This document shows positions 94 through 527 of a stretch of 52,842 bases of DNA, in pieces (the first letter of the stretch is position 1; each line of letters opens with the position of its first letter). The notes under the pieces are model-generated. The model ran no database searches. It worked only from the letters and a program-made list of their open reading frames with translations, and had not been told where the DNA came from. The stretch covers positions 1 to 52,842 of the forward strand of contig JACAEV010000125.1 of the NCBI GenBank assembly GCA_013388645.1, read 5' to 3'. The DNA is from Syntrophaceae bacterium (GTDB lineage: Bacteria > Desulfobacterota > BSN033 > UBA1163). The translations under genes and the position numbers were made by a program.

Positions 94-169
94 GGGGCTG
101 TAGCTCAGCTGGGAGAGCGCTTGAATGGCATTCAAGAGGTCGACGGTTCGATCCCGTTCAGCTCCACCA
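94..169 (+). tRNA. tRNA-Ala (anticodon GGC), CCA encoded
   Basis: A full cloverleaf can be folded by eye. The 7-bp acceptor pairs GGGGCTG (94-100) with CAGCTCC (159-165) and includes the G3:U70 wobble that is the identity element of alanine tRNAs. The D-arm is GCTC...GAGC. The anticodon stem CTTGA/TCAAG encloses loop ATGGCAT, giving anticodon GGC (reads GCC). The T-loop is TTCGATC, and CCA is encoded at 167-169. A run of T (174-180) follows directly and may end transcription. The 3' part from base 146 is duplicated at 500-527. Confidence 0.97.
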
Positions 170-173
170 ATTA
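146..173 (+). repeat. 28-bp direct repeat, tRNA copy (att-like)
   Basis: This stretch runs from the last base of the 5' T-stem strand through the T-loop, acceptor 3' strand, CCA and four bases beyond. It is identical base for base to 500-527. Such tRNA-3'-end duplications are the usual signature of site-specific insertion at a tRNA gene, where the incoming DNA restores the tRNA. Confidence 0.93.
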
Positions 174-183
174 TTTTTTTCTC

Positions 184-429
184 ATGCCTTATTTCTTATA
201 TATCCTCAGGAGTGAACCCACCGGCTCCTCCTATGTAGGACATACTTCCAACCTGAATAAAAGATTGATTGAACATAACAGAGGGAAAAGTTTATCAACG
301 CGGGGGAAAAGACCTTGGAGGCTTATTTATAAAGAAGAACTTCCAACACGCTCTGAGGCTATCGCAAGGGAAAAGTATTTTAAATCTATTCAAGGTAGGC
401 TCGATCTAAAGGGAAAAGGGATTCTGTGA
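184..429 (+). CDS. Small GIY-YIG family nuclease (UPF0213/YhbQ-like)
   Basis: The product is 81 aa, the size of stand-alone GIY-YIG proteins. The core is visible: the GIY strand as LYI (Tyr6), the YIG strand as YVG (Tyr17-Gly19), a conserved Arg27 in the following helix, and the downstream helix AIAREKYFKS with the likely metal-binding Glu63. I start it at the ATG at 184, just past the tRNA; the reading frame stays open upstream through the tRNA, and a longer start would translate tRNA sequence. Family members are single-domain DNA endonucleases, many with unknown targets. It lies alone between two copies of the tRNA 3' end, which suggests a homing or tRNA-targeting role. The substrate is unknown. 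Confidence 0.85.
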   Translation: MPYFLYILRSEPTGSSYVGHTSNLNKRLIEHNRGKSLSTRGKRPWRLIYKEELPTRSEAIAREKYFKSIQGRLDLKGKGIL

Positions 430-450
430 AAATTTCATTTTTTTAGAGAA

Positions 451-500
451 GAGGAGAGCGGTCGGATCGACTCGGTCGTACCGCACCGACTCGCAACGAG
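451..500. other. GC-rich palindromic tract at the right end of the GIY-YIG cassette
   Basis: Three small hairpins lie in a row: GTCG-gat-CGAC, TCGGT-(8-nt loop)-ACCGA and CTCG-caa-CGAG, the last abutting the second 28-bp repeat. The 8-mer GGAGAGCG at 453-460 matches the D-arm of the tRNA (112-119). It could be a scrambled tRNA remnant, a nuclease recognition site or a terminator. It does not fold as a working tRNA because the 5' T-stem strand no longer pairs. Confidence 0.5.
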
Positions 501-527
501 TTCGATCCCGTTCAGCTCCACCAATTA
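500..527 (+). repeat. 28-bp direct repeat, distal copy (att-like)
   Basis: Perfect second copy of 146-173, the tRNA-Ala T-loop to CCA plus four bases. The sequences on both outer sides differ from the first copy, so the repeat length is exact. No tRNA 5' half precedes it. From here to 679 there is no gene and no further structure that I can support. Confidence 0.93.

Follow-up and report, generated by a model that had tools for sequence, protein, structure and literature searches.

A single-gene GIY-YIG nuclease cassette inserted in bacterial tRNA genes, probably a homing-type selfish element

Integrase-driven islands at tRNA and tmRNA genes duplicate the 3′ end of the gene and restore the tRNA. 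REP/RAYT systems (REPINs) consist of a small gene bracketed by palindromic repeats, and group I introns in tRNA genes are neutral to the host through self-splicing. Group I introns with homing endonucleases are reported to insert in bacterial tRNA genes (PMC3984707). SegB of T-even phages is described as a free-standing GIY-YIG homing endonuclease that is linked to tRNA regions of many phages and to amplification of the adjacent tRNA (PMC13096335). We found no prior account in the open-licence literature of the chromosomal cassettes presented below.

The window, a stretch of 52,842 nucleotides from a Syntrophaceae bacterium (contig JACAEV010000125.1), carries an intact tRNA-Ala(GGC) gene at positions 94–169 (ARAGORN; Rfam RF00005, 62.6 bits); this gene and all of the window features described here are on the forward strand. 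A GIY-YIG nuclease ORF of 81 aa (184–429; Pfam PF01541, 7.3e-17) starts 14 nt past the CCA of the tRNA with no obvious Shine-Dalgarno sequence. The original prediction had proposed a perfect 28-bp repeat enclosing a single GIY-YIG gene and a palindromic tract, with no integrase in between. The repeat search recovered the proximal copy at 146–173 (tRNA nucleotides 53–76 followed by ATTA) and the distal copy at 500–527; since base 500 is the last base of the hairpin CTCGCAACGAG, the tRNA-derived repeat proper is 27 bp long and begins at T54 (position 501). The gene was confirmed as the only one between the repeats, where no ORF is able to encode an integrase. The palindromes are present as well, and the tract containing them proved to be itself a tRNA-Ala-derived copy (453–527), in which the anticodon arm and the T-stem are swapped for hairpins. 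From 5′ to 3′, it comprises a D-arm piece GGAGAGCG (453–460, from comparison with the tRNA), a hairpin GTCGGATCGAC in the place of the anticodon arm (461–471), a second hairpin TCGGT...ACCGA (472–489, also found in the hairpin scan), the junction hairpin CTCGCAACGAG (490–500) immediately 5′ of T54 of the T-loop, and, directly 3′ of this hairpin, the tRNA from T54 to its end (TTCGATCCCGTTCAGCTCCACCA; 501–523) and ATTA. This layout recurs in the relatives L005, L006, L007, L045, and L047. The position equivalent to hairpin 461–471 is occupied by GTCGNATCGAC in relatives and in the upstream copy, and the junction hairpin is also found in L045 and, as CTCGTAACGAG, in L006.

Position 1 of the window is a contig end, and positions 1–54 overlap exactly with the end of contig C43 of the same genome (G000), the assembly break lying inside the repeat unit. 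Just past the 54-base overlap, C43 contains a 5′ half of tRNA-Ala in which the hairpin GTCGAATCGAC replaces the anticodon arm. The overlap and this copy make it probable that the unit continues beyond the upstream edge of the window; the target in the window is tRNA-Ala(GGC) with an extra hairpin-bearing 5′ copy upstream, and the full unit is probably a hairpin-bearing 5′ half, the intact tRNA, the nuclease gene, and hairpins with the 3′ half. Copies of the hairpins were found nowhere else in the window's genome than on the adjoining C43, which ruled out a dispersed repeat family there. A group I intron was also ruled out: the tRNA is contiguous, and no intron family of Rfam was matched in the window or in seven related loci.

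The unit is present at the same tRNA-Ala, with 75–79% protein identity, in L005, L006, L045, and L047 from the window's family; L049 encodes a protein of 70% identity and has two ORF copies, one of them partly masked. A Nitrospirota genome (L007) contains the unit once, at tRNA-Ala with different neighbors. The 3′ hairpin copy is present and the ORF absent in G010, the upstream copy stands alone in G015, and a remnant is left in G001. The tRNA-Ala genes of G004, G003, and G006 have no cassette, and these sites are too diverged from the window for a base-exact comparison. Tandem tRNA-derived repeats with a period of ~110–140 bp, in which one or two arms are replaced by hairpins, were also observed directly upstream of intact tRNAs (L089, 850–1780 on the reverse strand; the end of L148; and L045, 1030–1480).

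A first profile, built from 22 tRNA-linked proteins, was run on an even draw of 118 genomes from the window's phylum and 99 Bacteroidota genomes, and gave matches in 67 and 65 of them, respectively, with up to 22 copies per genome in Bacteroidota. Loci of the top matches and of several additional ones were retrieved. Of the 122 non-redundant homologues counted as close by an E value below 1e-18, 58 lie no more than 150 nt from a tRNA or tmRNA gene (in 39 cases it is on the upstream side only, in 18 on the downstream side only, and in one on both sides); since the profile was built on linked proteins and the loci lack independence, these percentages hold for the present clade and not for GIY-YIG proteins as a whole. 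By our own estimate (45 tRNAs in 3.5 Mb), ~0.2% would be expected at random places, and the binomial probability of the linkage is ~1e-122 without correction for relatedness. No tRNA gene on the opposite strand was found within 150 nt at any of 209 homologues, and the more distant GIY-YIG clades were tRNA-linked in 7 of 87 cases. The targets include Ala, Arg, Asn, Asp, Cys, Gln, Gly, Leu, Lys, Met, Pro, Ser, Thr, and Val tRNAs as well as tmRNA. The survey of flanks that the original prediction had called for thus revealed strong linkage to many kinds of tRNA and, as described below, a second tRNA piece beyond the ORF; the gene neighborhoods establish that some clades of the GIY-YIG protein adjoin tRNA genes on the same strand.

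Several arrangements of other kinds were also seen. In L205, a tRNA-Pro(GGG) has a GIY-YIG cassette on each side, and the two proteins are 56% identical. One GIY-YIG clade lies 136–303 nt downstream of the tmRNA gene ssrA (L063, L085, L186, and L257), with palindromic repeats of the GAAGC/GCCTTCG type in the spacer. Inverted REP-like palindromes (CCCTGAGGCTCTCGAAGGGTGA; GTCATTCCNGCGAAGGCNGGAATCCAG) bracket other small GIY-YIG clades that are not tRNA-linked, namely those of L079, L081, L080, and L084 (ORFs like FWVYILRCADNSYYTGHTDNL) and of L001, L070, and L194 (SKRNGTLYTGVTSDL type); this arrangement recalls RAYT/REP pairs.

A tRNA fragment across the ORF was detected in 51 of 84 tRNA-adjacent cases, compared with none of 57 control tRNAs. 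Where the ORF follows the tRNA, a 3′ fragment lies beyond the ORF (39/63), and where it precedes the tRNA, a 5′ fragment lies ahead of it (12/21), forming the mirror arrangement. The controls were tRNAs of two genomes having no GIY-YIG neighbor; 59 had been tested, and the only fragments occurred at two tRNAs of L278, which were dropped from the control because L278 is itself a GIY-YIG locus (G178 tRNA-Val). Shuffling of the tRNAs gave no false fragment in 1,260 trials (63 GIY-adjacent tRNAs, 20 shuffles each), which together with the control excludes chance. The 3′ fragment starts three bases after T54 (T54+3, TTC^GAA) in 13 of 42 cases and at T54-10, with a hairpin in the place of the anticodon arm, in 6 of 42. 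A hairpin stem of at least 6 occurs within 45 nt of the break in 18 of 41 cases of the 3′ form and in 11 of 13 of the 5′ form; the background among random 45-mers from such loci is 9.75%. From these alignments it is evident that a palindrome marks the junction with the displaced tRNA piece. The cassettes, ~300–400 bp in size and encoding proteins of roughly 80–100 aa, are likewise seen from their layout to amplify in tandem at single tRNAs: eight ORFs are spaced at ~364 bp in G192 and three at 345 bp in G215, and the array units are parted by hairpin-bearing tRNA pieces.

Three filled loci (G177, G168, and G217) were compared with those of congeners, and the cassette-free loci bore out the original prediction by revealing exact insertions in tRNA-Ser and tRNA-Arg genes. 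The tRNA-Ser(TGA) locus of G177 contains 300 extra bases, composed of 274 unique bases, which hold the GIY-YIG gene only, and a 26-bp duplicate starting at TTC^GAATCCC. This site is empty in 7 congeners, where the tRNA is directly followed by its own terminator. In G177 this native terminator comes after the distal copy, the proximal copy ends in GCATG and supplies the start codon of the ORF, and the right junction reads GGGGTTC - TGCCAAAGGCA - TCCCTTCGGGA - GAATCCC. The tRNA-Arg(TCG) of G168 represents the 5′ form, with a D-arm insertion at GGATA^GAAT and the order native GGCTCCATAGTTCAACTGGATA, hairpin CCTGCCTGCCGCAGGCAGG, ORF, and complete tRNA; the site is empty in the eight congeners inspected, and BLAST coordinates point the same way for most of the remaining genomes that match (~25 look empty). 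In G217, tRNA-Arg(TCG) carries the 3′ form, a T-loop insertion at TTC^GACTCC in the order GGGGGTTC, an imperfect hairpin of ~34 nt, and GACTCCC; three congeners have the tRNA without a cassette. In both G177 and G168, the native piece adjoins the hairpin and the piece completing the tRNA arrived with the cassette.

Comparison of filled with empty loci demonstrates that the cassette targets and inserts in tRNA genes and that it sits inside the gene, at TTC^GAA of the T-loop in the 3′ form or in the D-arm in the 5′ form. It further demonstrates that the cassette brings the tRNA segment completing the gene and that the native piece, once displaced, lies beyond the ORF. By analogy with G177 and the other empty-site loci, in which the distal copy is native, the 3′ part of the tRNA-Ala(GGC) in the window is probably element-borne and restores the gene, and the distal copy at 500–527 is probably the displaced native 3′ end.

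The GIY-YIG domain covers residues 3–68 of the 81-residue protein (Pfam), leaving no separate DNA-binding region, and the cassette encodes nothing else. The residues Y, Y, G, R, H, and N are invariant and E is near-invariant in the family, and all are kept in the window protein. By profile matching of sequences, the nearest solved structures are UPF0213 proteins, SLX1, and I-TevI (1mk0, E 4.7e-4); GIY-YIG was the sole Pfam family, with no match to a Y1 tyrosine transposase. The dN/dS between ORFs is ~0.06–0.16 for pairs where dS is computable, indicating that the protein is kept by selection. Carriage on plasmids or phages was rejected: the matches there amounted to a weak one on a plasmid and to distant Rhizobium phage proteins of 36–40% identity.

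A tree of 86 linked proteins was built from 68 columns, and its deep forks are unsure because of this small number. The tRNA identity changes 36 times on the tree versus 62 with shuffled labels, and none of 200 shuffles went down to 36. One group (99/87), which crosses phyla, unites the five tmRNA-linked proteins, and another (100/97) unites five of the six Leu-linked ones; the Leu group mixes three isoacceptors, with members on either side of the tRNA. As judged from the tree, protein clades follow tRNA identity across phyla. Copies at different tRNAs of the same genome are mostly 30–55% identical, with one pair at two tRNA-Ser genes reaching 80%, and tandem copies at one tRNA are mostly 80–100% identical; the low identity between copies at different tRNAs implies that recent movement from one tRNA to another is not usual.

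We consider it likely that the window locus is one copy of a widespread group of minimal homing-type selfish elements, whose sole gene encodes a GIY-YIG nuclease and which insert in a loop of a tRNA gene through presumed cleavage by this nuclease, the nuclease clades being adapted each to a single tRNA. The smallness and tRNA targeting foreseen in the original prediction are supported by the linkage of homologues, the second tRNA pieces, and the exact empty sites. The 274 unique bases in G177 encode nothing else, so the enzyme should be the GIY-YIG protein. As deduced from sequence, it would cut a cassette-free tRNA gene at or near the insertion site. The break in the tRNA loop would then be repaired from a cassette-bearing homologue, in which the cassette would be flanked by sequence of the same tRNA, and the cassette would be copied in. 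The carried tRNA end would make the insertion harmless, with nothing lost to the host. The tandem growth fits continued activity at the restored site. One guess is that the hairpins protect the partial copy from re-cutting or the cassette from being recombined out, and it is possible, though speculative, that the tRNA gene is recognized as a structured target. Several observations stand against this homing model. The protein is barely more than a catalytic domain, without the DNA-binding tail of I-TevI, and how it would tell tRNA genes apart is not accounted for; nor is immunity of the filled site, as the restored tRNA keeps the target site. No intact tRNA lies nearby in 51 of the 122 close homologues, of which some belong to tandem copies and some are at the end of a contig or next to scraps of a tRNA, whereas others are none of these. 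Finally, the tmRNA-linked clade has palindromic repeats, but no duplication of the tmRNA end was found at its members.

The original prediction had itself named a deletion relic as the alternative, that is, an integrase-driven island whose attL and attR are the 28-bp repeat and which lost everything but the GIY-YIG gene. Repeats of a tRNA 3′ end are the classic mark of such islands, and G003, of the same genus, does carry a prophage-like island of ~15 kb, which encodes a tyrosine integrase and has an ORF resembling a terminase, at the orthologous tRNA-Ala(GGC) (G003:C9:13252-28257, L300). The att repeat of this island, however, corresponds to window positions 125–180, so that an island at the same tRNA was found but with other repeat limits and no hairpins. 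Moreover, the small cassette recurs intact at many unrelated tRNAs and in other phyla with the low dN/dS given above, the 5′ form rebuilds a tRNA 5′ end unlike the familiar 3′-end islands, and the exact insertions relative to empty congeners (300 bp in G177) largely refute a relic. We therefore rejected this origin on the repeat limits and the recurrence despite the G003 prophage, and regard it as highly improbable. Just as improbable is passive hitch-hiking, in which small genes and pseudo-tRNA repeats accumulate at tRNA recombination hotspots without any role of the nuclease in insertion. Although tRNA genes are well known to attract insertions and the nuclease activity is a predicted one, the insert holds this gene only, its position is the same to the base in independent cases, fragments of this kind are absent from the control tRNAs, and the other GIY-YIG clades are seldom tRNA-linked.

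An unlikely explanation, but one carrying some weight, is that the palindromes are mobile ends processed by the GIY-YIG protein, as in RAYT/REPIN systems but with another enzyme, and that tRNA genes are only a preferred landing site. It would suit the palindrome exactly at the junction, the bracketing of other GIY-YIG clades by inverted REP-like palindromes, the genome-wide enrichment of CCGCC-N3-GGCGG palindromes in several carrier genomes, and the presence of the structure-specific nuclease SLX1 among the nearest solved folds. However, hairpin sequences vary between genomes and between sites of one genome, their copies are not dispersed in the window's genome, the clades track tRNA identity, and the restored tRNA segment is hard to account for by such transposition alone. 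A toxin-antitoxin or RNA-level system, with the nuclease acting on tRNA or restrained by tRNA-like hairpin transcripts somewhat like type III arrays, seems quite improbable to us. The tRNA-like copies are probably co-transcribed with the tRNA and can form tandem arrays beside the gene (L089 and L045), but a lone degenerate copy is found at most loci, truncation varies from copy to copy, and as RNA the window tract shows no unusual stability (z -1.4). In relatives z is -1.9 to -2.6, and these values do not decide for a conserved RNA structure of the tract. The base-exact insertion and the target-specific clades would also be left unexplained.

Returning to homing-type elements, we lean somewhat towards regarding the cassettes as a new class of mobile DNA that relies on one minimal GIY-YIG domain, is common among Bacteroidota, and also occurs in several further phyla. 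The class would be defined by insertion at one constant base of the T-loop, D-arm, or anticodon region, a carried tRNA end that repairs the gene, a palindrome at the other junction, and lineages each adapted to one tRNA. If this is true, the cassette is among the smallest autonomous mobile elements known (~300 bp, with one gene of ~80–100 codons) and shows how a bare nuclease can live in essential genes without harm. It would also explain the small GIY-YIG nuclease genes following tRNA genes in many genomes, account for the origin of tRNA-like repeat arrays and of pseudo-tRNAs, and provide natural nucleases specific for tRNA genes. The matching of nuclease lineage and tRNA identity makes homing specificity directly testable.

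Each of the known systems shares some features with the cassettes. Integrase islands likewise duplicate the tRNA 3′ end, leave a restored tRNA, and also use tmRNA, but they are many kb long and carry an integrase, whereas the cassettes measure 300–400 bp without one and have a junction hairpin and a mirror 5′ form. In REP/RAYT systems, palindromes flank the gene, as do the junction hairpins here; their enzyme, however, is a tyrosine (Y1) transposase and not a GIY-YIG protein, and in the cassettes the repeats are derived from tRNA and the target is a tRNA loop. Group I introns are neutral by splicing, whereas the cassettes are neutral by the duplicated tRNA end and leave the mature tRNA contiguous in DNA, with no intron detected. 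The nearest known case is SegB: there too, a GIY-YIG nuclease gene lies beside tRNA genes. The absence of the gene from otherwise matching alleles is a further likeness, seen in the cassette family at the three filled loci and in G004, G003, and G006. SegB is phage-borne, whereas the cassettes of ~300 bp reside in bacterial chromosomes; insertion inside the tRNA gene, a restored tRNA end, and junction hairpins, all of which the cassettes have, are not reported for SegB in the accessible part of PMC13096335. The best reading is that the cassettes are homing-type elements, nearest to phage SegB among the known systems.
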